A DNA stretch of 64,000 bases from Pseudooceanicola sediminis (GTDB lineage: Bacteria > Pseudomonadota > Alphaproteobacteria > Rhodobacterales > Rhodobacteraceae), in the NCBI RefSeq assembly GCF_003575965.1, contig NZ_QWJJ01000004.1, forward strand, positions 1 to 64,000, in the 5' to 3' direction. The translations under genes were made by a program, and so were the position numbers. Of this stretch, positions 9,637-27,570 are shown in pieces (the first letter of the stretch is position 1; every line of letters begins with the position of its first letter). A model generated the notes under the pieces. The model searched no databases. It saw only the letters and a program-made list of their open reading frames with translations, and was not told the DNA's origin.

Positions 9637-9646
9637 TGGTACACCA
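9637..9646. promoter_or_regulatory. Candidate GntR operator, TGGTACACCA
   Basis: An almost perfect palindrome 35 bases upstream of the first SDR gene (minus strand). It matches the TGGTATACCA sites found in front of other operons of the island with one change. The form TGGTnnnACCA is what FCD-type GntR proteins usually bind. Confidence 0.6.
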
Positions 9647-9795
9647 CTCAAAATCCAAGGCGCAACTGCCGACCCGTTTTTTCCCTGTTGACCCGCTCCG
9701 TGCGCCTTCGGAACAGGCTCCACGCCGCCAACTCTGCCCATATTGAAGGCAATCGATATTTGACCCTGCAATAATTGGTGCTGGCATCTGGCATT

Positions 9796-9816
9796 TGGTG
9801 CACCCTCGGTATGCCA
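9796..9816. promoter_or_regulatory. Two tandem candidate GntR operators before the first NitT/TauT-class ATPase
   Basis: TGGTGCACCC (9796-9805) and CGGTATGCCA (9807-9816) are two half-degenerate copies of the island motif with centres 11 bp apart, so they face the same side of the helix. They end 57 bases upstream of the ATPase start at 9873. Confidence 0.55.
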
Positions 9817-9872
9817 TATGGCTCACCCGGGCCAGCACTGCCCGCCGGGATACCAAAGACAGGGAGCTTTCC

Positions 9873-10754
9873 ATGAAATCCGCCGCTTCTGCCGCCAGCG
9901 TCGTGCCTATGTCGACGCCTGAGGCCCCCGCCGGGCAGCCAGCAACCCCCGAGCCCGACAGCCGTCGCGAAGCCATCATCGAACTGTCGCACACCGGCGT
10001 CACCTTCGAAACCAGGAAGGGCAATGACCTCGTTGCACTGGATGATTTCAACCTGACGATCTACCGCGAAGAGATCGTTTCGCTGGTGGGGCCATCGGGA
10101 TGCGGCAAATCCACCGTCCTGCGCATTCTGGCCGGGCTGCAAAAGCCGACGACAGGTGATTTCTGGATTGGTGGCGGCAAGACGCGACAAGGGTTTTCCG
10201 AAGTCGCAATCGTTTTTCAACGCCCGACCCTGCTGCCGTGGCGCAACGTGCTCGACAACGTTCTCTACCCTGCACGCGTGCTCAAGGGCCGCGCCGACAA
10301 GGATGACCGCGACCGCGCACGCGCGTTGCTGGCCCTCGTCGGGTTGGAAGAGATGGCCGACCGGATGCCGCACGAGTTGTCGGGCGGCATGCAGCAACGG
10401 GCCTCCATCGCGCGCAGTCTGATCCTGGACCCCAAGATCCTGTTGATGGACGAACCCTTTGGCGCGCTCGACGCCCTCACGCGCGAGGATCTGCAACTTG
10501 ACCTGCTGGAGATCCACGAACGCACCCGCAAGACGATCCTGCTCGTTACACACTCGATATCCGAGGCGGTACTGCTGTCGGATCGTGTTGCGGTCATGTC
10601 CGCCCGTCCCGGCCGGCTGCAAGACCTGATCACGGTCGACATTCCCAAACCGCGCGGCCCGGATTCCACCGCGCGGCCCGATTTCCACACCTATTCGCAA
10701 CGTATCCGGGACGATATCTTCGGCCCGCGCACCAAAAGGGACCGCGCCCAATGA
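9873..10754 (+). CDS. ABC transporter ATP-binding protein, NitT/TauT (SsuB-like) class
   Basis: The 293-residue ATPase carries Walker A GPSGCGKST (about residue 73), Q-loop VFQRPTLLPWRN, signature LSGGMQQRAS (about 168), Walker B ILLMDEPFGALDA (about 188) and H-loop THSISEA, the pattern of nitrate/sulfonate/taurine-class importers. The start at 9873 has AGGGAG 6 bases upstream. About 35 residues of Ala/Pro/Ser-rich sequence precede the nucleotide-binding fold. It overlaps the permease gene by ATGA at 10751-10754. The matching binding protein is probably the one at 12938, beyond the M20 gene. Confidence 0.88.
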   Translation: MKSAASAASVVPMSTPEAPAGQPATPEPDSRREAIIELSHTGVTFETRKGNDLVALDDFNLTIYREEIVSLVGPSGCGKSTVLRILAGLQKPTTGDFWIGGGKTRQGFSEVAIVFQRPTLLPWRNVLDNVLYPARVLKGRADKDDRDRARALLALVGLEEMADRMPHELSGGMQQRASIARSLILDPKILLMDEPFGALDALTREDLQLDLLEIHERTRKTILLVTHSISEAVLLSDRVAVMSARPGRLQDLITVDIPKPRGPDSTARPDFHTYSQRIRDDIFGPRTKRDRAQ

Positions 10755-11518
10755 CCCCCGCCCTGCGCAAGATCATCCTGCCCGTCGCCACCTTCCTCGC
10801 CTTTCTCGGGGTCTGGCAATTCCTCAGCTACGCGATGGAGATCCCGATCTATCTGCTGCCCTCGCCCGTCGATATCTTCCATGGCGGCACCCGACTGGGC
10901 ATGACCATGCTGACCAATACCGGAGAGACGCTGAAGACCATCCTGATCGGCTTCGCCTGCGCCTGTCTGGTCGGCATTCCCCTGGGCGTCCTCGTCTCGG
11001 TCAATCGCACCGTGTCGGAAATGATCTATCCGCTGATCGTCTTTCTGAACGCCATTCCGATCATCGCCATCGCGCCGATCCTCGTGGTGATCTTCGGCAC
11101 CGACATGACGACGCGCCTGATCATCGTCACGCTGACCTGCTTTTTCCCCATCATGGTGGCCACCGCCTCCGGTATCCTCGACACGCCGTCGGAAATGCTC
11201 GACCTCGCCCGCGTCGCCGGGGCCTCGACCATGACCGAGATCCTGACAGTGCGCCTGCCCCATGCCGTGACGTTCATCTTCAGCGGCTTGCGCATCGGCG
11301 TGACCGTGGCCGTCGTGGGCGCAGTCGTGGCCGAGTTCGTCAATGCCAACAAGGGGTTGGGCTTTCTCGTCACCTCCTCGACCGCTCAGTTCGCAATCCC
11401 CACCGCGACCGCCTGCGTGGTCATGCTGGCCATCGTTTCGGTGCTGCTTTACGAGGCGGTGAACTGGATCCACCGTGGCTTTTTCGGCTGGTCGATCAAA
11501 TCCAACGTCGGGGACTGA
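10751..11518 (+). CDS. ABC transporter permease, NitT/TauT (SsuC-like) class
   Basis: The 255-residue inner-membrane protein has about six hydrophobic segments and the coupling loop DLARVAGASTMTEILTVRLP, as in SsuC/TauC permeases. It is translationally coupled to the ATPase upstream (ATGA). A strong bidirectional terminator follows at 11538-11563. One permease gene suffices because this class works as a homodimer. The ligand would be a small nitrogen compound if the island is a single pathway (inference). Confidence 0.88.
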   Translation: MTPALRKIILPVATFLAFLGVWQFLSYAMEIPIYLLPSPVDIFHGGTRLGMTMLTNTGETLKTILIGFACACLVGIPLGVLVSVNRTVSEMIYPLIVFLNAIPIIAIAPILVVIFGTDMTTRLIIVTLTCFFPIMVATASGILDTPSEMLDLARVAGASTMTEILTVRLPHAVTFIFSGLRIGVTVAVVGAVVAEFVNANKGLGFLVTSSTAQFAIPTATACVVMLAIVSVLLYEAVNWIHRGFFGWSIKSNVGD

Positions 11519-11537
11519 CCCCAGCGGACCCCATGAA

Positions 11538-11563
11538 AAAGGCCGGCGCTGGCGCCGGCCTTT
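11538..11563. terminator. Bidirectional intrinsic terminator
   Basis: A near-perfect hairpin with arms AAAGGCCGGCG and its complement around a short loop, followed by TTTCCTGTTT on the plus strand and preceded by AAAAA, so it can stop both the permease operon and the converging M20 gene. Confidence 0.75.
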
Positions 11564-11589
11564 CCTGTTTGTCGCGATGTGTCCTTGCT

Positions 11590-12795
11590 TCAGGCAGCGG
11601 CGTTGGTCTCCCGTTCCTGCCCGCCCAGCTCCTGGTTGACGACCGACACCCAGTAGGCCGCACCCCAGGGAATGATCGCATCGTTGAAATCGTAATCGGG
11701 CATGTGGTTGTTCTTCCACTCCGGCCCGTCGCCATTGCCCATCATCACGTTGCAGCCGGGCCGCGCGATCGCCATGTAGGCGAAATCGTCGGCGGCGTTG
11801 ATCGGGGCGCTGTTGCCATCGACGTTCTCGGCCCCCGCGACCGCAGCGGCGGCGGCAATGGCGATGTCGGTCTGTTCCCGCGCGTTGACCAGCGGCGGAT
11901 AGCCGCGCTGATAGTCCAGCTCGGCGGTGCACCCACTCATCGCCGCGCAGGCCTCGGCCACCTCGCCCAGACGTTTTTCCAGCAGATCGCGGATCACCGG
12001 ATTGTGGCAGCGCGCCGTGCCGGTCACCACGATTTCCGATGGCATCACATTGTGGCTGGTGCCCGCCTCGATCATGCCGACGGTCAGCACGGCCGATTCC
12101 TGCGCCACGATATTGCGCGACACGATCGACTGAACGCCCAGAATGAAATGCGCCAGCGGAATGGTCGTGTCGGTCGATTTCTCCGGCGCGCCCGCATGGC
12201 CGCCCGTGCCCTTGAAGCGCACGACCCAGGTGTCGGCGCAGGCCAGTTGGCCGCCGACGCGGGTGATGAATTTGCCCACCGGCAGGCCGGGCTTGTTGTG
12301 CAGCGAATAGACCGCATCGCAGGGGAACTGCTCGAACAGCCCGTCCTCGATCATCTTCAGGCCCCCGGCGCCGCCTTCCTCTGCGGGCTGAAAGATGCAG
12401 TGCACGGTGCCTGCAAAATCGGGATTGGCCTTGAGATAGCGCGCCGCGCTCAGCAGCATCGTGGTATGGCCATCATGGCCGCAACCGTGAAACTTGCCCG
12501 GAATGGTCGATTTATGCCCGAACGTATTCGTTTCGGTCATGTTCAGCGCATCCATGTCGGCACGCAGCCCAACGGACCTGTTACCGGGCCTGTTGCCCTT
12601 GATCACGGCAACGACCCCGGTGCCTGCCAACCCCTTATGCGCCTCGATGCCCCATTCTGCCAGCTTGTCCATCACGATGCCCGATGTGCGGTGCTCTTCG
12701 TAACTGGTTTCAGGGTGCATATGGATATCGTGTCGCAGGGCGACCATTTCATCTTCATGCTGGCTCAGCGCGGCAAAGACCTCTTCGAAGTGCAT
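11590..12795 (-). CDS. M20 family metallo-amidohydrolase (amidase/hippurate hydrolase-like)
   Basis: This 401-residue protein has metal motifs FHGCGHDGH and QPAEEGGAGG and an N-terminal LRHDIHMHPETSYEE segment, placing it in the same M20D group as the 6.3-kb gene but clearly diverged. It would hydrolyse an N-acyl, N-carbamoyl or similar amide. It is divergent from the binding-protein gene at 12938; the TGGTATGCCA site (12891-12900) lies between them and could control both. It sits between the permease and the binding protein of one importer, so its substrate probably relates to what that importer brings in. Confidence 0.85.
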   Translation of the reverse strand: MHFEEVFAALSQHEDEMVALRHDIHMHPETSYEEHRTSGIVMDKLAEWGIEAHKGLAGTGVVAVIKGNRPGNRSVGLRADMDALNMTETNTFGHKSTIPGKFHGCGHDGHTTMLLSAARYLKANPDFAGTVHCIFQPAEEGGAGGLKMIEDGLFEQFPCDAVYSLHNKPGLPVGKFITRVGGQLACADTWVVRFKGTGGHAGAPEKSTDTTIPLAHFILGVQSIVSRNIVAQESAVLTVGMIEAGTSHNVMPSEIVVTGTARCHNPVIRDLLEKRLGEVAEACAAMSGCTAELDYQRGYPPLVNAREQTDIAIAAAAAVAGAENVDGNSAPINAADDFAYMAIARPGCNVMMGNGDGPEWKNNHMPDYDFNDAIIPWGAAYWVSVVNQELGGQERETNAAA

Positions 12796-12890
12796 GATTT
12801 TTCCTCTCAGCTGGATGTCTTGTCACCGATTTCGCGACCTGCGCAGGTTCGGCGATGAAATTTATAGACGTCATGCTACCGGTATTCTAA

Positions 12891-12900
12891 TGGTATGCCA
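12891..12900. promoter_or_regulatory. Candidate GntR operator, TGGTATGCCA
   Basis: One mismatch from the perfect TGGTATACCA palindrome. It lies between the divergent M20 gene (start 12795) and the binding-protein gene (start 12938). A half-like copy, CCGGTATTC, precedes it at about 12879. Confidence 0.6.
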
Positions 12901-12937: not shown

Positions 12938-13930
12938 ATGACTAATCCGATGAACCGCACGGGCCTGCGCCTGGCAACAGCCTCTCTTCTTGCCCTGTCG
13001 CTGGCTGCCCCGGCGCTGGCTGCGGACAAGGTCAACTTTCAGCTCGACTGGACACCGGGCGGCATCTCCGCACCCTATTACCTCGGCCTCGATAATGGCT
13101 GCTATACGGACCAGGACATCGACGTGACCATATCGCGCGGCTATGGCGCGTCGGATGCCGTGACCAAGGTCGCCACCGGTGTGTCGGATTTCTCGGTCAC
13201 GGACCTTGGCACGATCATCGGCATCATCTCTGAAACCGGCGCGCCCGTTAAGGCGATCATGCCGATTGTCTCCAACAACCCTTCGGCCATTGCCGTGCTT
13301 GAGGACAGCCCGATCCAGACCCTGACCGACCTTGAGGGCCATTCCATCGGCTCTTCCGTCGGCAATGCCGCCATGACCTTCCTGCCCCTCGGAATGACGG
13401 ACGCGGGTGGCGATTACAGCAAGGTCGAGGAGATTACCGCCGACGGCTCTGCCCTGACCGGCCTCTTGCTGCAAGGCAAGATCGATGCGCTGGCCAGCTA
13501 TGTGACCTCGGTTGTCGGCATCAACTCCGTCGCACAAAATGCGGGCAAATCGGTGCGTGCGATCTATTACGGCGATACGCTGAACCTCTACAACGCCTCC
13601 GTGTTCACCTCGGATGCGATGATCGCCAGCAACCCCGACTTGGTGAAACGCTTCGCCAGCGCCGTGCAGTGCAGCTATGACGCCGCGCGCAAAGACCCCA
13701 CCGCGGCCATCGACGCCATCGTCGCCCACGTCGACGGGATGCTGCGCGAAAGCCAGGAGGCGATGGTGCCCAATTCCGTCAGCTTCGCCTTCGACAACGA
13801 CATCTTCGACAAGAACGGCTATGCCTTCGACATGGATCGCGTCGCCCACAATATCGACATGGTCGACACGGTCACGCCGCTGACGAACAAGCCTGCCGTC
13901 ACGGACGTCATCTACGACATCACCAACTGA
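12938..13930 (+). CDS. ABC transporter substrate-binding protein, NMT1/SsuA type
   Basis: The 330-residue protein has a Sec signal peptide (cleavage near ALAA/DK, about residue 29) and the mature opening VNFQLDWTPGGISAPYYLGLDNG, characteristic of NMT1/THI5-like binding proteins used by NitT/TauT-class importers (nitrate, sulfonates, riboflavin, pyrimidine precursors). It probably serves the ATPase and permease at 9873-11518. GGAG lies upstream of the ATG. A stem-loop follows the stop codon, then the DapA-family gene, likely in one transcript. Confidence 0.85.
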   Translation: MTNPMNRTGLRLATASLLALSLAAPALAADKVNFQLDWTPGGISAPYYLGLDNGCYTDQDIDVTISRGYGASDAVTKVATGVSDFSVTDLGTIIGIISETGAPVKAIMPIVSNNPSAIAVLEDSPIQTLTDLEGHSIGSSVGNAAMTFLPLGMTDAGGDYSKVEEITADGSALTGLLLQGKIDALASYVTSVVGINSVAQNAGKSVRAIYYGDTLNLYNASVFTSDAMIASNPDLVKRFASAVQCSYDAARKDPTAAIDAIVAHVDGMLRESQEAMVPNSVSFAFDNDIFDKNGYAFDMDRVAHNIDMVDTVTPLTNKPAVTDVIYDITN

Positions 13931-13946
13931 CCCCATCCCGCACGAC

Positions 13947-13972
13947 CGGTGCCGCCCGGCGTGGCGGCACCG
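13947..13972 (+). other. Stem-loop after the binding-protein gene
   Basis: Arms CGGTGCCGCC (13947-13956) and GGCGGCACCG (13963-13972) form a perfect 10-bp stem with a 6-base loop. There is no T run, so it more likely stabilises the binding-protein transcript or attenuates than terminates fully. Confidence 0.5.
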
Positions 13973-13996
13973 CCTGTCCCAGAAAGATCCCAATTC

Positions 13997-14923
13997 ATGA
14001 CCCTGATCACCGCATCCAGCAAAGGCGTCTTCGTCATTGCCGTCACCCCCTTCACCGAAAATGGCGCGATCGACCACGCCAGCATCGACCGCGTGACGGA
14101 TTTCTATTTCGACGCCGGGGCCGATGGTCTGACCATCCTCGGGATGATGGGCGAAGCACCAAAGCTGACCCCAGGCGAAGCCCTCGCCGTGACCCGTGCC
14201 ACGCTGGCCCGCGCCTCGGGCAAACCCGTGGTGGTCGGCGTTTCGGCCCCCGGACTGGCCGCGATCCGCGATCTGTCCGCCGCCGCGATGGACCTCGGGG
14301 CCTCGGGGGTCATGGTTGCCCCGCCGTCGTCGCTGAAGACCAACGAACAGATCATCGCCTATTACGCGCAGGTGGTCGAGGCGATCGGGGCCGATGTGCC
14401 GATGGTTCTGCAGGATTTCCCGCTGTCGACCAACGTGCATATTTCCCCCGCCACCCTCGGCACGATCTTCGAGGCGCACCCCTCCATCGTGATGCTCAAG
14501 CACGAGGACTGGCCGGGTCTGGCCAAGATCACCGCGCTGCGAGAGGCCGAGGAAAAGGGTCGCCGCCGTACCGCGATCCTGACCGGCAACGGCGGATTGT
14601 TCCTGCCCGAGGAAATGCGCCGTGGTGCCGATGGTGCGATGACCGGCTTCGGCTTTCCCGAGATGATGCGCGATGTCGTTGCCCTGTCGAACGCAGGTGA
14701 TCACGACCGGGCCAACGACATCTTCAACGCCTACCTTCCGCTGGTGCGCTATGAACAACAACCCGGCCTCGGGCTGGCGGTGCGCAAATACGTGCTGGCC
14801 AAACGTGGCGCCATCGCCTCGGCTGCGATGCGCAAACCGGGTGCGCCCCTGCCATCCGTCGCGGTGGCCGAGGTCGAGGCGATGCTTGCCCGCCAGGCGC
14901 GCCGTCTATCCGAGCTCGGCTGA
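13997..14923 (+). CDS. DapA-family (dihydrodipicolinate synthase/N-acetylneuraminate lyase) aldolase-like protein
   Basis: The 308-residue protein is a TIM-barrel lyase of the DapA family: GMMGEAP matches the pyruvate-binding GxxGE, and the Schiff-base Lys is K168 in MLKHED. The catalytic Tyr of DapA (in the usual YNxP motif) is replaced: the segment reads LQDFP, with Q139 at that place. It is therefore not a standard lysine-pathway enzyme but a side-branch lyase or dehydratase. The start at 13997 was chosen over an in-frame upstream codon at 13949, which would overlap the stem-loop. It follows the binding-protein gene by 66 bases, so it may act on a keto-acid intermediate of the island. Confidence 0.75.
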   Translation: MTLITASSKGVFVIAVTPFTENGAIDHASIDRVTDFYFDAGADGLTILGMMGEAPKLTPGEALAVTRATLARASGKPVVVGVSAPGLAAIRDLSAAAMDLGASGVMVAPPSSLKTNEQIIAYYAQVVEAIGADVPMVLQDFPLSTNVHISPATLGTIFEAHPSIVMLKHEDWPGLAKITALREAEEKGRRRTAILTGNGGLFLPEEMRRGADGAMTGFGFPEMMRDVVALSNAGDHDRANDIFNAYLPLVRYEQQPGLGLAVRKYVLAKRGAIASAAMRKPGAPLPSVAVAEVEAMLARQARRLSELG

Positions 14924-14968: not shown

Positions 14969-16444
14969 TCACGCCACAGGTTCGCTGACAGGCGGTGGGG
15001 TGTCTCGGCCATATCCCTCCAGCCGCCGGTTCGGCAGCAGAACCATCGCGATCAGGCACAGCGTCATCAGCCCCCCGAGGGTCGCGCCAAAGCTCCATAA
15101 CGGCAGTCGTGCGCCCTCCAGCGTCTCCGCAGCCAAGCCCGATCCGACCGCCATCATCCCCACGACGGAAACACCGATGGTGCCCCCCATGGATCGCATG
15201 AACGACAGCACACCGATTGAGGCGCCCATCTGCCCCGGCGCGGCGGCGTTCTGCACGATCAATGCGAACACCGGAAACAGCATTCCCACCCCCATACCAA
15301 GGCCGATGGTCGGCAGGATCAGCAACAGCAGCGTCGTGTCTTGTGCCATGACCACCGTCACCGCGGCGGCAAACACCGTTCCCATCACCGCGCCGCTGAC
15401 CACCAGCCGCTTGTAGGCCGGGCGGCGTTTCAGGATCTGCGGCGTCAGAAACGCTCCGACCAGCCCGCCCGCGATCATCGCAAGGATGCCAAGGCCCGCC
15501 TGCGCCGCGCTCAATCCATTGACCTTCTGGAAATACAGCGGCAGGTAGATCGCCAGCCCGAGGTTGGTCCCCACACAGGCAGCCAGCCCCAGCGACGCCA
15601 GCACGATGGATCGATTGGTGAACACCGCCAGCGGGATAAGCGGGTCGCGGGCCTTGATCATGCGCACGGCGAACCCCGCCCAGAACACCGCGCTCAGCGC
15701 CACCAGCGCCCAGATCGGCAGCACCGGTGTTTCGCCCGCCCCCACGGTCTCCGACGCGCTGAAGATCAGCAACAGCGGCACGGTCGCCGCCAACAGCAAC
15801 CCGGCGCCGGGCCAGTCGATGCGGCGCCCCTTCAGGGCGGCACGCGGCGTCAGCGCCGTCATGACACCCCAGAACACCAACAGGCAGGGCAAAAGGTTGA
15901 CCCAGAAGACCCAACGCCAGCTCAGGTATTGCGCCAGCGCGCCGCCCGCCAGCGGCCCGATCAGCCCGGCCACCGCATAGATGGTCGAAATGAAGGCGCT
16001 GAACACCGCACGCCGCGCCATCGGCACCCGGTCGGCCACGACGACGAAGGGCACGGACACCAGGCCACCCGCGCCGCAGCCCTGCAACAGGCGCGCCGCC
16101 ACCAGGAATTCCAGCGATGGCGCAATGGCACACAGGATCGACCCCGCCAGGAACAGCGCGTTTGCCAGCAACAACGCGTAGCGCCGGCCCCGAATGTCCG
16201 CGATGGCCCCATACAGCGGTGCCGCCACCATCGACGCCATCAAAAAGCCCGTCGCGACCCAGGCCAGCAACGCACCGCCGCCGAAATCGGCCAGGATATC
16301 GGCCAGCACCGGCCCGACGATCGTCTGGTCCAGTGCTGCCACGAACAACGCCATCATCGCCGCAGCCAGCAGGCGTGGTGTTCCGCGTTCAAGAAACCGC
16401 AAACGCGTGCGCCCCGCAGGCGGGGTCTGTTCAAAGTCGGTCAT
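14969..16444 (-). CDS. MFS transporter, DHA2 (EmrB/QacA) type
   Basis: The 491-residue membrane protein is rich in hydrophobic segments, enough for about 14 helices. It has the MFS motif A region GAIADIRGRRYALL, the early motif LDQTIVGPVLADI and the motif C-like stretch LIGPLAGGALAQYLSWRWVFWVN that is typical of drug-H+ antiporters. It may export a substrate analogue, intermediate or toxic compound. It lies downstream of the first GntR gene in the same direction (73 bases), so both may be one transcript. It converges with the DapA-family gene (45 bases). Confidence 0.82.
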   Translation of the reverse strand: MTDFEQTPPAGRTRLRFLERGTPRLLAAAMMALFVAALDQTIVGPVLADILADFGGGALLAWVATGFLMASMVAAPLYGAIADIRGRRYALLLANALFLAGSILCAIAPSLEFLVAARLLQGCGAGGLVSVPFVVVADRVPMARRAVFSAFISTIYAVAGLIGPLAGGALAQYLSWRWVFWVNLLPCLLVFWGVMTALTPRAALKGRRIDWPGAGLLLAATVPLLLIFSASETVGAGETPVLPIWALVALSAVFWAGFAVRMIKARDPLIPLAVFTNRSIVLASLGLAACVGTNLGLAIYLPLYFQKVNGLSAAQAGLGILAMIAGGLVGAFLTPQILKRRPAYKRLVVSGAVMGTVFAAAVTVVMAQDTTLLLLILPTIGLGMGVGMLFPVFALIVQNAAAPGQMGASIGVLSFMRSMGGTIGVSVVGMMAVGSGLAAETLEGARLPLWSFGATLGGLMTLCLIAMVLLPNRRLEGYGRDTPPPVSEPVA

Positions 16445-16517: not shown

Positions 16518-17225
16518 CTAGCGACGGATTCCCAGAATGTAGTCCACGATCGCCGCGCGCACATGGTCAATATGCGCCCCCATGAGGGTCCGCGTCAGTT
16601 CAGGGTCTGTGCCCGCCGCGGCCCGGATCAGGGCGCGATGTTCCTCTGCGCCCGGCGTCAGCCGATGCGAAATGCGCGAGGTGTTGAAGATATGCGTCCG
16701 CCGCCGCAGATCGCGGATCGACTGGCTCAGCATCGGATTGCCCGCCGCCTCCGCGATGGAATGGTGCACCAGATCATCGACCGCCCAATGCTGGGCCGAC
16801 GTCACCTCGTTCAGCTGCAAAAGATGATCCAGCGCCGCCTCGACCTGCGCCAGCACGTCGGCACCGATCCGCCCCGTGGCGCGCGCCGCCGCCTCCATCT
16901 CCAGGATACGGCGCAGATCCAGCAGCCGCACATAGCTCTCGACGCTGATATCCGCGACCACGAGGTTACGCCCCGGCCCCCGCAGGATCAACGCCTCTGC
17001 CTCCAGCCGGAACAGCGCCTCGCGCACCGGCGTGCGGGAAATTTCCATGCTCTGCGCCAGCTTGCGTTCGTGCAGCGCCTCGCCCGGCTTGACCTCACCG
17101 GCCAGCAACAGGTCCAGGATGTGCGCATAGGCGACCTCCGACAGGCTCCGCTCTCCTGCGGCGACGATTGGGTCGCGCCGTGGCCGCGCATCTTTCAGGG
17201 TAACGATATGCTCCAAGGGGCCCAC
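16518..17225 (-). CDS. GntR-family transcriptional regulator, FCD (FadR/VanR) subfamily
   Basis: The 235-residue protein has an N-terminal winged helix (about residues 30-90, with ISRTPVREALFRLEAEALI) and an all-helical FCD ligand domain. The FCD metal ligands look complete: D and H in VDDLVHH, H in EEHRAL and H in HIDHVR. The start is GTG at 17225; a TTG at 17216 is an alternative with better spacing to GGAGAG. It is divergent from the first nitrilase-like gene, with a perfect TGGTATACCA site between them. It is a probable controller of the island, together with its paralogue at 26604. Confidence 0.85.
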   Translation of the reverse strand: MGPLEHIVTLKDARPRRDPIVAAGERSLSEVAYAHILDLLLAGEVKPGEALHERKLAQSMEISRTPVREALFRLEAEALILRGPGRNLVVADISVESYVRLLDLRRILEMEAAARATGRIGADVLAQVEAALDHLLQLNEVTSAQHWAVDDLVHHSIAEAAGNPMLSQSIRDLRRRTHIFNTSRISHRLTPGAEEHRALIRAAAGTDPELTRTLMGAHIDHVRAAIVDYILGIRR

Positions 17226-18883: not shown

Positions 18884-18929
18884 TCTGAATGCCACAATAA
18901 AAAACGACCATCACCAACAGGATTTCCCA

Positions 18930-20099: not shown

Positions 20100-20888
20100 A
20101 TGGATTTCGGACTTACCCAGAAACACGCCCTCGTCACCGGCGCCAGCTCCGGGCTCGGCCTTGCCATCGCCCGCGCCCTGCTGGCCGAAGGCGCGACCGT
20201 CACTCTGACCGGCCGCTCGGATGAGCGTCTGCGCACAGCCATTGCCGACCTGCCCGAGGCCCTGCGCGACAAGTGCGATTTCACGGCTGTCGACCTTGGC
20301 GACCCGGATGCGGCGCCCCGGCTGGCAGAGGCCGCGACCCGGCGCACCGGGCAGGTGGACATCCTGGTCAACAACACCGGCGGCCCGCCGCCGGGCATCG
20401 CCAGCACCATCGACCCCGACGTCATGCGCACGCAGTACGGTGCCATGGTCGACCCGGTAATCAGGCTGACGCTGGCCCTGCTTCCAGGCATGAGAGAGCG
20501 TGGCTGGGGCCGTATCCTGACTGTCGCCTCCAGCGGCGTTGTCCAGCCGATCCCGCACCTGCCCATGTCGAACGCCCTGCGCTCCACCCTCGTCGGGTTC
20601 ATGAAAACTCTGGCGGGCGAAGTCGCTGTCGATGGCGTTACCGTCAACGTCATCGCACCGGGCCGGATCGCCACCGCACGCACCGCCGCCCTCGATGGTG
20701 CCGCTGCCGAGCGGGCGGGCAAACCCGTGGCCGACATCGCCCGCGCCTCTGCCGCCAGCATTCCCGCAGGGCGCTACGGCGATCCCGATGAATTCGGCGC
20801 CGTCGCGGCCTTCCTCGCCTCTAAACGCGCCAGCTACGTCACCGGCAGCACCATCCGCGTCGATGGGGGCGCGATCCGCGCGGTCTGA
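20100..20888 (+). CDS. SDR-family protein lacking the usual YxxxK pair
   Basis: The 262-residue protein has an intact dinucleotide motif TGASSGLG (residues 13-20), a changed NNTGG in place of NNAG, a Ser region VASSGV (about 142-147) and a C-terminal VTGSTIRVDGG typical of FabG-like SDRs. Where the catalytic YxxxK should be, it reads SNALR (S157 and R161), so the usual proton relay is absent. This variant (LxxSNALR) recurs in a subgroup of FabG-like proteins as far as I recall. It lies inside an importer operon, between the binding protein (162 bases upstream) and the ATPase (64 bases downstream). Confidence 0.78.
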   Translation: MDFGLTQKHALVTGASSGLGLAIARALLAEGATVTLTGRSDERLRTAIADLPEALRDKCDFTAVDLGDPDAAPRLAEAATRRTGQVDILVNNTGGPPPGIASTIDPDVMRTQYGAMVDPVIRLTLALLPGMRERGWGRILTVASSGVVQPIPHLPMSNALRSTLVGFMKTLAGEVAVDGVTVNVIAPGRIATARTAALDGAAAERAGKPVADIARASAASIPAGRYGDPDEFGAVAAFLASKRASYVTGSTIRVDGGAIRAV

Positions 20889-20952
20889 TCCGCCGCGTCC
20901 ATCCACCAGCAACAGGGGGCCGGCCACATGCCGGCAAAGAGAGATGAATGTC

Positions 20953-21807
20953 ATGACAGCCACACCAGGCCTCGCGGCCACCCTGCCCGACACCGGGCCG
21001 ACCGTCACGGAAACGGCCACGCCGCCCCGGCCCGCGCATATCTCGATGTCCGGCGTTACCAAGGTGTTCAACGGGCGCAAGGGCAAGGTCGAGGCCCTGC
21101 GTTCCGTCGACCTGGATATCCGGCGCGGTGAATTCGTCTCGGTGCTCGGGCCCTCGGGGTGCGGCAAATCCACCTTGTTGATGCTGCTCTCGGGGCTGCT
21201 GTCGCGCACCGAAGGCAACATCTCGGTCGGCGGCAAGGACATTACCAAACCGAACTCCGACCTCGGGATCGTCTTTCAGCAGGATGTTCTGCTCGACTGG
21301 CGCTCGGCCCTCGACAATATCCTGATCCAGGCCGAATTGCGCAAATCTCCGATGGAGGAGGCAAAGGCCAAGGCACGCAACCTGCTGCGCATGGTCAGCC
21401 TTCAGGATTTCGAAGACGCCTATCCGCATGAACTGTCGGGTGGCATGCGTCAGCGCGTTTCGATCTGTCGCGCGCTGCTGCACGAACCCGACCTGATGCT
21501 GATGGACGAACCCTTCGGCGCGCTGGATGCGATGACGCGCGACCAACTGCAAATCGACCTGCTGCGGCTGTGTTCGGAACGCGACATGACGGTGTTCTTC
21601 ATCACCCACTCGATTTCCGAGGCGATCTTCCTCAGCGACAGGGTTGTCGTCATGACCCCCCGACCCGGCCGGATCGAACGCATCATCGATATCGACCTGC
21701 CCCGCCCCCGCCGTCTGGCCATGCGCGAAGACCCGAAATTCACCGGCTACGTGCACGAGCTGACGGACATCTTCAAGAACCTCGGTGTGTTCCGAGAGGA
21801 GTATTGA
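20953..21807 (+). CDS. ABC transporter ATP-binding protein, NitT/TauT (SsuB-like) class
   Basis: The 284-residue ATPase has Walker A GPSGCGKST, Q-loop VFQQDVLLDWRS, signature LSGGMRQRVS, Walker B LMLMDEPFGALDA and H-loop THSISEA. ATG 20953 was chosen because the purine tract AAAGAGAG ends 9 bases before it; an ATG at 20944 abuts that tract and would add three residues. Four bases separate it from the permease gene. It is a paralogue of the ATPase at 9873. Confidence 0.87.
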   Translation: MTATPGLAATLPDTGPTVTETATPPRPAHISMSGVTKVFNGRKGKVEALRSVDLDIRRGEFVSVLGPSGCGKSTLLMLLSGLLSRTEGNISVGGKDITKPNSDLGIVFQQDVLLDWRSALDNILIQAELRKSPMEEAKAKARNLLRMVSLQDFEDAYPHELSGGMRQRVSICRALLHEPDLMLMDEPFGALDAMTRDQLQIDLLRLCSERDMTVFFITHSISEAIFLSDRVVVMTPRPGRIERIIDIDLPRPRRLAMREDPKFTGYVHELTDIFKNLGVFREEY

Positions 21808-21810
21808 GAC

Positions 21811-22638
21811 ATGGCTGCCATTCCCGACACCAACCTCGACCGGTTCGAGGATACGCGCACGCCCCTGCGGCGCGCCTTCGATTCCATCCCACCATCGCTG
21901 CTGACACTGATCGCGCTGCTGGTCTTCTGGGAAACGATGGTACAATGGCGCAACATCCCCGAATATATCCTGCCCGCGCCATCGGCCATCGTCGAGGTCA
22001 TGATCTCCTACTGGCATCGCCTCTGGCCGAATGCACTGGTGACCCTGGGTGAAATCGTCTTCGGCTTCTTCTGCGCCGTCTGCATCGGTGTGCCGCTGGC
22101 CGTCGCCATCGTCTATTCCCATTTCATGCAGCGCGCCATCTATCCGCTGATCGTGATGAGCCAGACCATCCCCAAGGTCGCGATTGCACCGCTGCTGCTG
22201 ACCTGGTTCGGCTATGGCGTGACGCCAAAGATCGTCATCGTCGTTCTGCTGTCCTTCTTTCCCATCGTCATCAACTCGGTCATGGGTCTCAAGGCAACGA
22301 CGCCCGAAATGCTGCACCTGGCGAAATCCATGGGCGCGAACGGCTGGCAGACCTTCTGGAAATTCCGCCTGCCCAAGGCATTGCCCAGCATCTTTGCCGG
22401 GCTGAAACTCGCCACCGTGCTTTCTGTCATCGGGGCCATCGTGGCCGAATTCATCGGCGCCGACAAAGGCCTCGGCTATCTGATCCTGATCGCGGGCGCC
22501 AACTTCGACATCGCCCGCCAGTTCGCCTCGATCATCCTGATCTCGATCATGGGCATGGTGTTCTTTGCAGTGCTGTCGCGCGTTGAACGGATCGTCGTGC
22601 CCTGGCGCCAGGGGTCCGACCTCGCGGGCGAGGGCTGA
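21811..22638 (+). CDS. ABC transporter permease, NitT/TauT (SsuC-like) class
   Basis: The 275-residue inner-membrane protein has about six hydrophobic helices and the coupling loop MLHLAKSMGANGWQTFWKFRLP. It follows its ATPase by 4 bases and ends the second importer operon. It resembles the permease at 10751 in design, with a slightly longer N-terminus. An imperfect GC-rich hairpin lies just after the stop codon (about 22648-22677). Confidence 0.87.
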   Translation: MAAIPDTNLDRFEDTRTPLRRAFDSIPPSLLTLIALLVFWETMVQWRNIPEYILPAPSAIVEVMISYWHRLWPNALVTLGEIVFGFFCAVCIGVPLAVAIVYSHFMQRAIYPLIVMSQTIPKVAIAPLLLTWFGYGVTPKIVIVVLLSFFPIVINSVMGLKATTPEMLHLAKSMGANGWQTFWKFRLPKALPSIFAGLKLATVLSVIGAIVAEFIGADKGLGYLILIAGANFDIARQFASIILISIMGMVFFAVLSRVERIVVPWRQGSDLAGEG

Positions 22639-22891: not shown

Positions 22892-23923
22892 TCAGAGATC
22901 CAGCACCAGCCTGTCGCTCTGCGCCAGTGAACAGCAGATCATCATGACATTGCCGCGCTCGCGTTCCCGCGCGCTCAGCACGTTGTCGCGGTGATCCGGT
23001 ACCCCCTCGATGACCCGCGTCTCGCAGGTGCCACAGACGCCCGACTGACAGGAATAGGCAACGCGGATACCCTCTTCCTTCAGCACCTCCATGATGGTTT
23101 TTCCGGCCGGAACGACCACTTCGCGCCCCGAACGTTTCAGCACCACGGTAAATCCCGTTTCGGCACCTGCAACGTCGGCCCCGACAAAGCGTTCGACATG
23201 CACCAGTTCCGCCGCGCGGCCGCGCCCCAGAACCTCGAAGGCGTCGATCATCGGCACCGGACCGCAGCAATAGACATGCGCATCGGCAGGGACCCGGGCG
23301 AACTGCGCCGCCAGATCCAGCAGCGCACCGGCCTCGTCATCGACATGCAGATGCACCCGCCCCCGGCCCGCATCCAGCTCCGCCAGCACATCCAGAAACG
23401 CGGCGTTGGCGCGCGCACGCACCGCGTAAACCAATGACCAGTCGGCCTGTCTCGCCTCAAGATGGCGGATCATCGACAGGATCGGGGTGATCCCGATGCC
23501 CCCCGCGAACAGCACTACAGGCGCACCCGTGTCGGCCAGTGCAAAGGTATTCCGGGCCGTCGTGACCTCCAGGATATCGCCCACGCGCAGGCGCTCGCAG
23601 ATGTATTGCGACCCGCCCGTACTCTCGGCATCGCGGTTCACCGCGACCACGTAGGCGTTGCGTTGTTCAGGCCCGTTGATCAGCGAATAACTGCGGATCA
23701 GATCGCCCGGCAGCGCCAGATCGACATGCGCGCCGGCCTCGAACGCCGGCACCCGGTCGCCCGTCACGGGGTGCAGCTCGACCGATCGGATGGTCTCGGC
23801 CTCGTAGCGGATGGCCTGTACCCGCATGGCCAGTGTCTCTGCCTGAAACCCCACGGCGCCCCCTTTCAAACGTGGCACCGGCGCATCCCCTGCGCCGATG
23901 CCCGTGGCAAAATGTGCCGTCAT
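22892..23923 (-). CDS. Oxygenase reductase: FNR-type flavin domain plus plant-type [2Fe-2S] domain (phthalate dioxygenase reductase-like)
   Basis: The 343-residue protein has the flavin-binding RSYSL motif, the NAD-binding GGIGITPILSM stretch and CCGP, then a C-terminal ferredoxin domain with CQSGVCGTC (about residues 289-297) and a last Cys near 327. This order is that of phthalate dioxygenase reductase and vanillate demethylase reductase (class IA). It passes electrons from NAD(P)H to the Rieske oxygenase encoded directly upstream, whose stop codon overlaps its start (ATGA at 23920-23923). Confidence 0.9.
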   Translation of the reverse strand: MTAHFATGIGAGDAPVPRLKGGAVGFQAETLAMRVQAIRYEAETIRSVELHPVTGDRVPAFEAGAHVDLALPGDLIRSYSLINGPEQRNAYVVAVNRDAESTGGSQYICERLRVGDILEVTTARNTFALADTGAPVVLFAGGIGITPILSMIRHLEARQADWSLVYAVRARANAAFLDVLAELDAGRGRVHLHVDDEAGALLDLAAQFARVPADAHVYCCGPVPMIDAFEVLGRGRAAELVHVERFVGADVAGAETGFTVVLKRSGREVVVPAGKTIMEVLKEEGIRVAYSCQSGVCGTCETRVIEGVPDHRDNVLSARERERGNVMMICCSLAQSDRLVLDL

Positions 23924-25254
23924 TCGGCGGCATCCTTCGGAGCGACATAGCCCTTGGCCTTTGCCATCTGTTCCTCGTATCCGTCCAGCCAGTCGGTGCC
24001 CTTGGGCAGCACGATGTCACCTCCGCGCGCCGCACGGGCATATTCGGGATGATCGACGAAATCGGGCAAGACCTTGTTGTCCCGCCAGTCCTGCGCCGCG
24101 TCCAGCATGACCCGACGGGTCAGGATCACCATGCGATCGGATGCGGCCAGGTGCTCCATCGTGCGGTCCACGACGTGCCCCATGCTTTCCTGAATGGCCT
24201 GGTCCTGCAACGGCACGCCGACGATGCCGGTATAGCTGTCGCCATTGCGCTGCCATTCCCGGTCGATGCCATAATCGTTGGTGACATCCTTGACCGGGCG
24301 CCAACGGCCCTTCCAGTCCGTCGTGGTGGGCAGGTATTCGACAGGGCGGGCAAGGCCGCCGACGGGCTGGCCATCCTTGTATTTCAAACCCTTGCGACCA
24401 CCCCCCGTCGCGCGCGACAGGTCGATGTTGAAAATCATGGTGCTGTCGTCATCGATCGGCACCCAGGCATTGACCGTCTTGGCCTCGCCCAGATCGCCGC
24501 CACCGGGATAGGTCACCCAGAACGGGAACAGATAGCAGGCATAGCGCTGATGCTCATGCCCCTCCATCGCGTCACGCTGCGCGGAATACATGGTGCCGAA
24601 GTTCGTCGTCGTGACGTTGATCTTGGGGGCCTTCTCGGTGACCGTAAAGACCTCCGGGTCGTCCAGGTCCAGCTTTTCTCCGTCGATCCCGCCCATGTGC
24701 AGGAACCCGAGGTGAGAGGTATCCACATCCCCCTCCAGCGCCTGCATGTAGTTGCAGTCGCGGTGGGTCAGGGCGATGTTTCGGTCATCCCCCTCGCCCA
24801 TGATCGCGTCGATCTCGGGCAGCTCGGGCGGATTGTCCTGGCGCTCGCCGAAATAGGCAAACACCAGCCCGCCGGATTCACGCACCTTGTAGGCATAGGC
24901 CGGGGTGCCCGCCGGGTATTTCGACTTGTCCTCGAGGTTCGGCTGGTCCAGGCATTTGCCCTCCACGTCGAACTTCCAGCCGTGATAGGCACAGCGGATG
25001 CCGCCCAATTCGTTGCGGCCAAAGAACAGACTGGCGCAGCGGTGCGGGCAGCGGTGATCAAAGACGCCGACGCGCCCCTCGGTATCGCGGAACGCGACCA
25101 GCTTTTCACCGAGGATCATCAGGCGCATCGGGTCACCGTCGGCCTTCAGCTCCGACGACAGGCAGACCGGCGTCCAGAACTGGCGAAAGAAGTCACCCAT
25201 CAATGTCCCGCGCCCGACGGCGCACAGATCGACGTTTTCCTCTGCTGTAATCAT
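23920..25254 (-). CDS. Rieske non-haem iron oxygenase, phthalate 4,5-dioxygenase-like alpha subunit
   Basis: The 444-residue protein has a Rieske centre (C69-P-H71 and C88-A-Y-H91) and a mononuclear iron site in EGDVDTSHLGFLH (H181, H186), with the DTSHxxFLH form typical of the phthalate 4,5-dioxygenase/LigXa group. Such enzymes hydroxylate rings or remove O- or N-methyl groups. There is no beta-subunit gene, in line with this alpha-only group. It is the middle gene of a three-gene operon: nitrilase-like, 9 bases, oxygenase, overlap, reductase. The substrate is unknown; the neighbours favour an N-containing ring or N-alkyl group (inference). Confidence 0.9.
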   Translation of the reverse strand: MITAEENVDLCAVGRGTLMGDFFRQFWTPVCLSSELKADGDPMRLMILGEKLVAFRDTEGRVGVFDHRCPHRCASLFFGRNELGGIRCAYHGWKFDVEGKCLDQPNLEDKSKYPAGTPAYAYKVRESGGLVFAYFGERQDNPPELPEIDAIMGEGDDRNIALTHRDCNYMQALEGDVDTSHLGFLHMGGIDGEKLDLDDPEVFTVTEKAPKINVTTTNFGTMYSAQRDAMEGHEHQRYACYLFPFWVTYPGGGDLGEAKTVNAWVPIDDDSTMIFNIDLSRATGGGRKGLKYKDGQPVGGLARPVEYLPTTTDWKGRWRPVKDVTNDYGIDREWQRNGDSYTGIVGVPLQDQAIQESMGHVVDRTMEHLAASDRMVILTRRVMLDAAQDWRDNKVLPDFVDHPEYARAARGGDIVLPKGTDWLDGYEEQMAKAKGYVAPKDAAE

Positions 25255-25263
25255 CTCAATCTC

Positions 25264-26331
25264 CTAGTGTTCAACAGTCGACAGCGGCTCGGAGGCTCCG
25301 GCCGGCAAGGGGGTCAGAACGCCGCTGCGCTCAAGGTTGGCGCGGGCAACGGCGATGGCGGCGGCCGTCTCGGCAACGTCGGCCATCGGCGCGTTCAGAA
25401 AGTGGTCAGCGGGATAAAAGCGCGCCTGTTCGTAGAACGGCACGTACATTTCGTACCGGGCACGCAGGTGCGGGTTTGACAGGCCGGTGTCGGCGCGCCG
25501 GTCGCGGCGCAGCGCGTCGATGTCGATCAACGCGCTTACGGCGATGCTCTCTTCGGCGTCCTCCTGAAAGGCCAGCGTCTGGCCAAGGTGGTCGATGATA
25601 TGCGACCGCCCGCCGACATGGGTGCCGTCAGGCGAAAATCCGATCGGCCCCGCGATATTGGCCGACACCATGGCAACCATGTTTTCCGACACGCGGCACA
25701 GTTTGGCGGCCTCCTGCGCCTCGCTGAAACGCGAATTGGTCGGGTGCAGGATGACCTCGGCCCCCTGCATCATCATCACGCGCGCCACCTCGGGCACGTT
25801 GATTTCGCCGCACGGAATCACGCCCAGCCGCCCCAGCGGCGTATCGACCACCGGGAACACCTGGCTCTGCGGGGTCGCCGCCAGGTAATCGGTGCGGAAA
25901 TCATGCACGCTCGGGAAAGCCGCAGTATTGATGCGACGATAATTCAGGATCACCTCACCCGCCGGGTCGATGATGAAAGAGGTGTTGAAATACCGCCCCT
26001 GCCACTCCTGCGGGGCTTCAAAGGCATTGCCGGCGATATAGATGCCCTGCCGCCGCGCCAGTGCCTGCAAGGGCGCGACAACGGGTCCGGGAATGGTGAT
26101 GCAGGCGCGCGCGATCCACTCCGCTACCGGCATTCCCAGGGGTGGCCCCTGCATTGCGAACTCAGGGAAGACAACCAGCGCGGGTTTGTCGGCCGTGTCA
26201 CAGGCCGCCTCGATCAACCCGACCAGCCGGTCCCGGTTGCGGGTGATGACGGCACGCGCCGCCTCTGCGTCCTCAGCCTCGCAGGCCCGTTCGGCGCGCA
26301 TCTGGATACAAGTGGCTCGCCAAGGTTTCAT
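25264..26331 (-). CDS. Nitrilase-superfamily (AmiE-like) carbon-nitrogen hydrolase with altered catalytic lysine
   Basis: The 355-residue protein is a paralogue of the one at 17465, sharing the start WRATCIQM and most motifs. Glu57 (FPEFAMQ) and Cys174 (PCGEINVPE) are in place, but the catalytic-lysine motif reads YRRIN, with Arg133. It leads the operon with the Rieske oxygenase and reductase, so it may hydrolyse an amide made or exposed by the oxygenase. A perfect TGGTATACCA site lies 57 bases upstream, and a GntR gene is divergent at 26604. Confidence 0.8.
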   Translation of the reverse strand: MKPWRATCIQMRAERACEAEDAEAARAVITRNRDRLVGLIEAACDTADKPALVVFPEFAMQGPPLGMPVAEWIARACITIPGPVVAPLQALARRQGIYIAGNAFEAPQEWQGRYFNTSFIIDPAGEVILNYRRINTAAFPSVHDFRTDYLAATPQSQVFPVVDTPLGRLGVIPCGEINVPEVARVMMMQGAEVILHPTNSRFSEAQEAAKLCRVSENMVAMVSANIAGPIGFSPDGTHVGGRSHIIDHLGQTLAFQEDAEESIAVSALIDIDALRRDRRADTGLSNPHLRARYEMYVPFYEQARFYPADHFLNAPMADVAETAAAIAVARANLERSGVLTPLPAGASEPLSTVEH

Positions 26332-26387
26332 GTCTCGCTCCCGGTTGCTGTGCGTCAGTTGGTCGGCATCTCTTCATTGCCCACCAA

Positions 26388-26397
26388 TGGTATACCA
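26388..26397. promoter_or_regulatory. Candidate GntR operator, perfect TGGTATACCA
   Basis: A perfect palindrome between the nitrilase-Rieske-reductase operon (start 26331, minus) and the second GntR gene (start 26604, plus). Confidence 0.7.
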
Positions 26398-26603
26398 CTG
26401 ACATTCACGGAAGAACCCGGTGATTTCAAGCCTTCTTTCCTCAAAGCCGCCGATTTTCGGGATCGCCACAGGCGCGGGTGCAGAAATGCGGCATACGCGC
26501 GGTGAAAAAAACTGCTGGAATACAGCCACAATACCTCGGGCCTTCCAACCGTACGCCATTAAGTATAAAGAACAGCACACGTTATGCGAATGGAGGCCCC
26601 CGG

Positions 26604-27281
26604 ATGACTGTTGCTGCGACTCTGCCCGCCAAGGCGAACGATGCGAGGCCGAACCTGACCGAACAGGTCTATGAGCAGTTGATCCAGATCCTGATCAACG
26701 GAGAGTTGCGCCCCGGTGACGTGATCGTCGAACGCCGGATGGCCGAACGTCTGAACGCCTCGCGCACCCCGATTCGAGAGGCCCTCGGGCGACTCGAAGC
26801 TGAACGCCTGGTCTACAAGCAGGCCAATCGCGGCGTGACCGTCTCTCCCTTCTCGACCGAGGCCCTGATCGAGATCCTCAACGTCCGGCAGCTGCTGGAG
26901 GCCGAGGCCGCGCGCCTGGCTGCGGGCCGTCTGCCCAAGGCTCGGATCGAGGTGATCCGCCAGGCAATGCAGACACTGGCCGACAAATCCGATGCCACCC
27001 TTGCCGATATCTGGGATGTCGACGACATGCTGCACGGTGAAATCGCCGACGCCTCCGGCAACGAATTGCTGGCAGGCATGATCCGCGACCTGCGCCGACG
27101 CACCCACGTGCTGAACGCGTTTCGCAGCCCGCATGAATCGACCTTCGACCTCGCCGAGAATACCAAGCTGCTCGACACGATCGAAAGCGGCGACAGCGAA
27201 AGCGCCCGCGCGGCCATGGAAACCCACATCACCAACGTCAAGATCGCCATCATCAACCGTCTGACCGGCATCTCGCGCTGA
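26604..27281 (+). CDS. GntR-family transcriptional regulator, FCD (FadR/VanR) subfamily
   Basis: The 225-residue protein has a winged-helix domain (about residues 15-80, with NASRTPIREALGRLEAERL) and an FCD domain with VDDMLHGEIADASGN and the motif RDLRRRTH shared with its paralogue at 16518. The metal-site His usually found in EHxxLL is Asn186 here (AENTKLL), so ligand or metal binding may differ. GGAGG lies 7 bases before ATG 26604; longer in-frame starts lack such a site. It is divergent from the Rieske operon, with a perfect palindrome between them. Confidence 0.85.
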   Translation: MTVAATLPAKANDARPNLTEQVYEQLIQILINGELRPGDVIVERRMAERLNASRTPIREALGRLEAERLVYKQANRGVTVSPFSTEALIEILNVRQLLEAEAARLAAGRLPKARIEVIRQAMQTLADKSDATLADIWDVDDMLHGEIADASGNELLAGMIRDLRRRTHVLNAFRSPHESTFDLAENTKLLDTIESGDSESARAAMETHITNVKIAIINRLTGISR

Positions 27282-27309
27282 TCCCTGGGCCGCCTCCTCC
27301 GCAGGCTCT

Positions 27310-27333
27310 GGCGCGTCCCCGGCAGGACGCGCC
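27310..27333 (+). terminator. Hairpin after the second GntR gene
   Basis: Arms GGCGCGTCC and GGACGCGCC are perfect with a 6-base loop. No T run follows, so termination would be weak or factor-aided. Confidence 0.4.
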
Positions 27334-27560
27334 CCGCATCCCGGGCGCCACCCCCCCCCCTGATCCCTACGGTCGTACCGCGGCCTGACATCCCGCGGCC
27401 TGTCGTCACTTGGCCACTCCTCACTGGCCCGGCTCCACGCAGCCCGCCGGGCGCCAGCGCATGACGCAACCTTTTGCGCCGCGCCACGCCCCGCACGGTA
27501 ATTTTTGCAATTCCCGGGTCTCTCGTGCCTTGCCATGTCCTGTTTCTTGTGGAACTTAAT

Positions 27561-27570
27561 TGGTATACCG
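27561..27570. promoter_or_regulatory. Candidate GntR operator, TGGTATACCG
   Basis: One mismatch from the perfect palindrome, 74 bases upstream of the NIPSNAP-RidA operon. It is preceded by AAT, as at 17407. Confidence 0.6.

Follow-up and report, generated by a model that had tools for sequence, protein, structure and literature searches.

Operators of the FadR (FCD) subfamily of GntR regulators were compared by Suvorova et al. 2015 (PMC4494728). Most operators of the subfamily fall into a three-base class, while some, including those of UxuR, belong to a two-base class; weaker half-sites flank the site at 7-12 nt from its centre, and divergent gaps can have double sites. We analyzed a 64,000-bp stretch of the Pseudooceanicola sediminis genome (the window; part of contig C35), in which copies of a ten-base palindrome with the consensus TGGTATACCA recur across a 20-gene catabolic island (8218-28717) that encodes two FCD-type GntR proteins, GntR1 and GntR2. 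A two-base centre, half-sites and paired divergent-gap sites are all present here. The island also shows two traits of the FadR subfamily, namely TKGT/ACMA boxes 2 or 3 nt apart, as defined in PMC4494728, and sites that stand beside a regulator gene and before operons and are kept in orthologous loci. We consider it highly likely that the palindrome serves as operator for a regulon of the FCD/GntR type, spanning the whole island and worked by GntR1 and/or GntR2.

The closest worked-out precedent is Atu1419 of Agrobacterium fabrum, a member of the VanR group (PMC7797058). Atu1419 is a repressor of its own gene and of adjoining catabolic genes, and it acts at an operator over the -10 element, with paired sites 190 and 109 bp apart and DNA looping. 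Like the island regulators it is an FCD-type GntR protein with a 10-bp palindrome that has a two-base centre (ATGTATACAT), and when GntR1 and GntR2 are compared with solved structures, both match that of Atu1419 (6Z74), among others. The island differs in its TGGT...ACCA core, its two paralogous regulators, its 11-bp half-sites and its pathway, and it has about nine or more sites, whereas Atu1419 has three and a degenerate fourth. Proteins of the VanR group have a six-helix C-terminal domain and those of the FadR group one helix more (PMC7797058). An AlphaFold2 model of GntR2 has six helices from residue 85, at a mean pLDDT (predicted local distance difference test) score of 65.5 with residues 1-83 below 50, a quality too low for the DNA-binding part of the model to be used.

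The UxuR/ExuR pair of Escherichia coli (PMC9369180) resembles the island system in that two paralogous GntR proteins act on one catabolic regulon, and UxuR sites have the same 2-nt spacing (PMC4494728). However, GntR2 scores 37.7 and 39.9 bits against NCBIfam cut-offs of 442 and 396 for this pair, GntR1 scores 28.9 bits for UxuR, likewise far below the cut-off, and no hexuronate genes were found among the island genes. FadR, PdhR, LldR and GlcC, which recognize TGGT-N3-ACCA, share the TKGT/ACMA boxes, but their centre is 3 nt long (PMC4494728) and that of the island operator 2 nt. Of the NCBIfam families, TIGR03338 (phnR_burk) scores best for GntR1 as well as GntR2, at 94.6 and 87.7 bits far below its cut-off of 271.5, and no phosphonate enzyme is among the 20 island genes. 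Searches of the open-access literature yielded no bacterial-operator paper among 20 of 30 titles for the ten-letter motif, and no paper with four of five terms for this gene set.

A palindromic repeat concentrated in the promoters of one island

The first-pass annotation of this DNA listed nine copies of the palindrome (T-G-G-T/C-A-T-A/G-C-C-A), each with at most two changes and each in an intergenic promoter region. All nine do lie between genes and upstream of at least one gene start, and eight are as close to the consensus as claimed: those at 17407 and 26388 are perfect, five carry one change and the copy at 9807 carries two, while its 11-bp neighbour at 9796 (TGGTGCACCC) has three. The list was incomplete, having overlooked a site at 17294 (TGGTCGACCA) and 11-bp partners at 12880 and 18885.

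When two mismatches were allowed, the window contained 18 matches compared with a mean of 7.46 in shuffled sequences, and none of 100 shuffles reached 18. Twelve of the matches are in the island, two of these in coding sequence (16762 in GntR1 and 26809 in GntR2); the six outside it (644, 3241, 44820, 48565, 54502 and 56170) are at about chance level. The annotation had noticed no copies in housekeeping regions, which is correct at one mismatch but not at two. At most one mismatch was found at 7 sites in 1,731 bp of island promoter DNA and at none in the rest of the window, and the rate in the non-island genome predicts 0.007 for those promoters (Poisson P about 2e-19).

Across the 4.44-Mb genome, 26 places have at most one mismatch to TGGTATACCA, 7 of them in island promoters, and the only two perfect copies are both in the island; a reversed control pattern had 57 such places, which shows that the palindrome is not a generally frequent pattern in this genome. 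The degenerate form TGGYATRCCA occurs at 7 genome places, 4 in the island, and its control at 8. A position matrix built from 60 sites of related islands was scanned over the window, and its 11 best hits were all in island promoters (scores of 11.4-29.6), with 9.0 the best score outside the island. An Infernal model of 43 relatives' sites was searched against the organism's own genome at E <= 10, the kind of genome-wide scan that the annotation had proposed as a refuting test. With 150 of 572 first-look candidates scored, it returned ten rows, all of them from the island: five places, each hit on both strands. Scored by the matrix, the 19 non-island places with at most one mismatch reached 13.8 and 12.1 at best and otherwise no more than 9.6. 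Eighteen of them fall within open frames that are 137 or more amino acids long, these frames being mechanical calls with a Pfam check at the two best places only. The place scoring 13.8 (C41:193141) falls within a transglycosylase-domain frame, and that scoring 12.1 (C10:78391) is near a zinc alcohol dehydrogenase gene.

We also looked for regulon members elsewhere in the genome among these 19 places and rejected them, as none comes near the scores of the five main island sites (23.0-29.6). In seven relatives' genomes listed in full, TGGTATACCA, TGGTATGCCA or TGGCATACCA occurs at 37 places, of which 26 belong to the islands; this hand count excludes TGGCATGCCA, seen at no island promoter, and includes island sites just beyond the stretches, with one further genome listed only in part and two not listed. 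Taken together, the shuffles, the genome counts, the relatives and the model search rule out chance or base composition as the source of the repeats.

The sites stand in front of every transcription unit of the island, of which there are ten by gene order and strand. At the left end, TGGTACACCA (9637..9646; one change) lies 35 bp before SDR2 (8928-9602) of the minus-strand SDR2-SDR1 unit for two short-chain dehydrogenases (8218..9602), and the 11-bp tandem TGGTGCACCC/CGGTATGCCA (9796..9816) precedes the plus-strand operon for a NitT/TauT-class ABC ATPase and permease (ATP1 and PERM1; 9873..11518). The operator TGGTATGCCA at 12891 (one change), together with its partner at 12880 (12880..12900), separates the divergent genes for an M20 amidohydrolase (11590..12795, minus strand) and for the NMT1-type binding protein SBP1 with a DHDPS-family lyase (12938..14923, plus strand). 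GntR1 (16518..17225) and, downstream in the same direction, an MFS transporter gene (14969..16444) occupy the minus strand. The intergenic site TGGTCGACCA (17294..17303), the second operator near GntR1, presumably serves autoregulation of GntR1-MFS. A perfect operator (17407..17416), with TTGACA 18 nt upstream of its TATACC, stands before NIT1 (17465..18484, plus strand), which encodes a formamidase-like carbon-nitrogen hydrolase. The plus-strand operon for the second NMT1-type binding protein (SBP2), SDR3, ABC ATPase 2 and permease 2 (18930..22638) is preceded by TGGTATACAA (18785..18794; one change) and by TGGCATACCA at 18874 (one change) with its partner at 18885 (18874..18894). The other perfect operator (26388..26397) lies before the minus-strand operon (22892..26331) for the carbon-nitrogen hydrolase NIT2, a phthalate-dioxygenase-like Rieske oxygenase (LigXa_C) and a ferredoxin reductase (FDR), which diverges from GntR2 (26604..27281, plus strand). 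A weak candidate nearer GntR2, TGGAATACAG (26516..26525), is possibly the second site of that divergent gap; its matrix score of 7.5 is at background level. Finally, TGGTATACCG (27561..27570; one change) precedes the plus-strand genes for a NIPSNAP protein and a RidA-family protein (27645..28717).

When the genomes of 84,980 species were searched with NIT1, 15 loci were obtained. We used the ten with orthologues 66-80% identical, from six genera (three in Devosia, two each in Alloyangia and Maritimibacter, one each in Tropicimonas, Celeribacter and Roseisalinus), and left out five at 33-36% identity. Gene order is much alike in the ten islands; within the stretches seen, locus L032 is without the part left of GntR1, L034 has neither the first importer nor the M20 gene, and L027 has no SDR3. 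A site with at most two mismatches is present in all 45 promoter regions of these islands (three long regions being trimmed to their last 250 bp), and one with at most one mismatch in 39. By gap, the counts are 8/8 for SDR2/ATP1, 8/8 for M20/SBP1, 10/10 each for GntR1/NIT1 and NIT1/SBP2, 7/7 for NIT2/GntR2 and 2/2 for GntR2/NIPSNAP. Upstream of NIPSNAP, sites with at most one mismatch were found in all ten relatives, namely L027 and L033 and the other eight, whose regions were fetched separately (8/8). At this threshold the relatives have 44 sites in 10,368 bp of promoter DNA compared with 2 in 157,795 bp of coding DNA, and an unseeded k-mer count found ATACCA in 40 of the 45 regions, a 69-fold excess over coding sequence. 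The gaps that contain no start codon (DHDPS/MFS, PERM1/M20 and PERM2/FDR) have no site of two mismatches or fewer in any island that has them.

Individual positions are conserved as well. The SDR2 gap holds a site, and the 12891 copy is identical, in all eight relatives whose stretch includes the respective gap. Two sites in the SBP2 gap were also seen in the same-genus locus L099, with a single site in the other relatives. The slot of the 17294 site is occupied by TGGTCGACCA in L026 and L027, TGGTAGACCA in L030, CGGTAGACCA in L031, CGGTACACCA in L032 and TGGTGGACCA in L099. At the 26516 slot, L026, L027, L029, L030 and L031 have a site of at most two mismatches at a similar place, and L099 has TTGTATTCCA. 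In an eleventh island, covered over 14 kb in a genome of the same genus, sites lie in the same gaps.

Spacing, half-sites and promoter placement

The operator form given in the first-pass annotation, TGGTnnnACCA, has to be amended to TGGT-N2-ACCA. In the window's six promoter regions, exact forms with N2 and N3 spacing number 4 and 0, respectively, and forms with one mismatch 9 and 0; the corresponding numbers in the relatives' 45 regions are 11 and 0, and 53 and 4. When spacings from 0 to 6 were compared, exact TGGT/ACCA pairs occurred only at N2. These counts rule out the FadR-type 3-nt spacing. Among 71 sites, the half-site signal is strongest 11 bp away from the site in either direction, where the mean matches are 2.25 and 1.58 of 4 positions compared with at most 1.23 and 1.21 at other shifts. 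Many, although not all, divergent gaps have paired sites, 75-113 bp apart in the GntR1/NIT1 gap where two are present and 118-180 bp apart in the SDR2/ATP1 gap. DNA looping with fixed phasing between paired sites was considered and set aside because the spacings vary, and we make no claim of phasing.

In 9 of 11 NIT1, 8 of 11 SBP2 and 6 of 9 SDR2 promoters (23 of 31 together), positions -18 to -22 hold the TTG of a -35-like box. Since the box precedes these operators by 18-22 nt, the operator would sit on the -10 element, and to judge from the sequence it appears to do so at NIT1, SBP2 and SDR2. Some FCD proteins activate transcription, and the operators of SBP1, NIT2 and NIPSNAP, which have no clear -35 box at the expected distance, would suit activator sites at which GntR binding turns the genes on. 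We regard this as unlikely, since the operator seems to cover the -10 element at NIT1, SBP2 and SDR2 just as it does in the repressor Atu1419 (PMC7797058).

GntR1, GntR2 and their association with the motif

Both regulators match the Pfam families GntR (PF00392) and FCD (PF07729) above the gathering score, in agreement with their first-pass designation as FCD-type GntR proteins. GntR1 and GntR2 are 39% identical; within the genome GntR2 matches GntR1 best, and GntR1 has no strong match other than GntR2. They occur together in every related island seen far enough, which for GntR2 means nine of ten (those other than L035). In a 295-genome family sample that includes the organism's own genome but not some of the island-holding relatives, GntR2 had two further matches (E <= 1e-40), about 40-42% identical, and GntR1 had none.

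We examined 15 GntR2 homologues from outside the islands, comprising 9 of 23 plasmid records and all 6 non-own hits of further searches. In ten of them the palindrome, with no more than one mismatch, lies in the 300 bp that precede the matched gene part, four of these copies being perfect and three having an 11-bp neighbour; the shuffle expectation is 0.08 of 15. At this threshold the palindrome is missing from all of 14 distant FCD paralogues of the organism's own genome, one of which carries TTGTATACAA, with two mismatches. The palindrome upstream of outside homologues thus ties the motif to this GntR branch independently of the island. These data, together with the genome-wide scan and the conservation across ten islands, support the annotation's proposal of a single FCD/GntR regulon. 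A LysR gene adjoins the island (about 28741-29664), and one could ask whether the repeats are bound by an unrelated factor or are structural elements without a regulatory role. This seems highly improbable, given that the sites keep the same promoter gaps across six genera, that related gntR genes elsewhere carry the palindrome, and that no other island gene was found at the outside gntR loci compared (L025, and L017 and L018 over 3.6 kb).

GntR1, GntR2 and their aligned orthologues have a common SRTPxREAL recognition helix. They also share the Arg of an ER pair, which, by eye against FadR, we take to be position 28. An Arg28 is linked to G/C in the TKGT box (PMC4494728). With recognition helices this nearly identical, sequence does not distinguish the two proteins, and sharing is the simplest reading; GntR1 and GntR2 probably share the sites. 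It is possible, if somewhat doubtful, that only one of them binds TGGTATACCA sites and that the other has a different or narrower set and another signal, for example sites of the TGGTCGACCA/TGGTAGACCA type at its own promoter. A distinct variant at the GntR1 promoter in the window, L026, L027, L030, L031 and L099 is in keeping with this division, as is the wing residue at position 59 (our own placement), which is Gly in most GntR1 proteins (Glu in L033, a gap in L034), with Asn, Ser or Gly at this place in GntR2; Gly59 is linked to G/C in the TKGT box (PMC4494728). The agreement of the recognition helices speaks for sharing instead, as do the absence of the variant site from L028, L029, L033, L034 and L035, and the homologues at L017, L018 and L025, which are about equally like both proteins (39-41% and 39-40%) and carry the palindrome (with two mismatches in L018).

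Several observations weigh against one island-wide regulon with a specific operator. The sites at 9637, 9807 and 18785 are too weak alone to be returned by the whole-genome model search and appear only when the window is searched by itself (E 1.2 for 9637, 0.038 for the 9796/9807 tandem and 1.8 for 18785), and the two best non-island places (13.8 and 12.1) outscore the weakest island partner site (11.4). The matrix core is seeded, in that the relatives' sites were chosen by likeness to the window consensus; this seeding does not extend to the flanks or positions, nor to the k-mer count and the spacing test. No second site of at most two mismatches was found in the GntR1/NIT1 gap of L028, L029, L033, L034 and L035, or in the GntR2 gap of L033 and L034. 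The -35-like TTG is absent at SBP1 (0/9), NIT2 (0/9) and NIPSNAP (0/3) and was found in 2 of 9 ATP1 promoters. Over all 61 promoters the signal amounts to 25 compared with 9 on the other side of the site, in a range (-18 to -22) picked after the sequences had been inspected. Among the outside homologues, L057, L059, L060 and L067 have no upstream site (L057 and L067 being apparently one record, judged by coordinates), L018 has only a two-mismatch site, and the L063 site falls inside the annotated 5' end of the gene. Moreover, the core is not exclusive to this GntR branch, for five perfect copies of TGGTATACCA occur in Alloyangia mangrovi in a threonate-type sugar-acid cluster with another GntR protein.

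The A. mangrovi cluster (L091, L092; G676:C79:64000-93514) encodes L-threonate dehydrogenase, 3-oxo-tetronate kinase, dihydroxy-acid dehydratase and a TRAP transporter. One of its genes is 32% like GntR1 over 160 amino acids, and its TGGTATACCA copies seem to have flanks richer in AT. This genome would contain two regulons that use one core, and cross-talk is possible there.

From these data we infer the following course of regulation for the FCD-type GntR regulon. Dimers of GntR1 and/or GntR2 would bind the ten-base core, and the half-sites 11 bp away would offer further contact on the same DNA face. At NIT1, SBP2 and SDR2, where the operator would lie on the -10 element, RNA polymerase would most likely be blocked, and the sites near both gntR genes suggest autoregulation. 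An inducer, either the imported substrate or an intermediate, would bind the FCD domain and cause the GntR proteins to release the DNA, so that both importers, oxygenase, amidases, dehydrogenases and lyase would be switched on together. More tentatively, the paralogues may share operators yet read two signals, with competition or heterodimers gating the island, an undescribed pathway for a nitrogen-rich ring as its target, and 11-bp half-site arrays and paired sites tuning individual promoters. One such pair of signals could be two substrates taken up from outside, another an early pathway intermediate and a late one, which would fit the two importers and two amidases.

Neighbouring genes, pathway clues and implications

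The island is accessory: of 23 genomes from the genus, counting the organism's own, 2 have its Rieske gene (E <= 1e-150). Directly past it (28741-31936) are the LysR gene, an Asp/Glu/hydantoin racemase gene and a D-hydantoinase-family gene, the last of which scores above its cut-off. These genes lack the operator, and no site of at most two mismatches lies in front of the racemase and D-hydantoinase-family genes. Upstream of the island (5402-8190) are a nucleoside hydrolase gene and the genes for a second M20 amidohydrolase and for a phosphoribosyltransferase, whose calls overlap on opposite strands (7426-7836), so one of these two starts was probably called too long. Both Alloyangia islands have, between the second permease and the Rieske operon, a gene for a protein of 363-367 amino acids (L026:14952-16043, L027:13341-14444), whose C-terminus looks by eye like a LuxR-type helix-turn-helix; the L026 copy had no NCBIfam match at 1e-20.

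Several genes bear on the pathway. The solved structure closest to the Rieske oxygenase is that of a putative phthalate 4,5-dioxygenase, and NIT1 and NIT2 resemble formamidase and N-carbamoyl-amino-acid hydrolase. Six relatives from Devosia, Maritimibacter, Tropicimonas and Roseisalinus have a cyclic-amide hydrolase gene between GntR2 and NIPSNAP (L029, L030 at 19575-20978, and L093-L096), a gap that has no such gene in the window. The L030 copy is like ErtD (hydantoin-5-propionate amidohydrolase), at 479 bits below the cut-off of 600, and the others are 59-74% identical to it. Since a regulon site lies near its start in the five relatives whose start was covered, the ErtD-like hydrolase is a candidate additional regulon member in these relatives. 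Between NIT1 and SBP2, three islands have a TRZ/ATZ-type amidohydrolase gene (L031:11023-12594, L032:11011-12588 and L034:11023-12588), an assignment scored for the L031 copy, to which the other two are 68-72% identical. Our guess is that the substrate or an intermediate is a cyclic ureide or another nitrogen-rich ring.

The clusters for riboflavin/lumichrome (PMC12746152) and auxin (iad; PMC12633357) degradation were compared as candidate pathways and did not match. Literature searches on homarine or pyridine betaines, followed as a hunch, and on ergothioneine use gave nothing usable. Four candidates were found among Rieske matches in 113 plasmid records, and in the three that were examined (Paraburkholderia, Croceicoccus and Croceibacterium) no island genes other than those for the Rieske oxygenase and its reductase lie within about 20 kb; the Paraburkholderia locus has no site beyond chance.

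Taken together, the repeats are a real, conserved and specific operator set, and they delineate a new regulon with many sites and two co-conserved paralogous regulators. This gives a conserved 20-gene catabolic island of scattered alphaproteobacteria a defined regulon, in both its regulators and its operators. Because the same operator precedes extra genes in relatives, the motif offers a way to assemble the complete pathway and to guess its substrate. With two paralogues on what appears to be a single operator set, signal integration by GntR pairs becomes testable.

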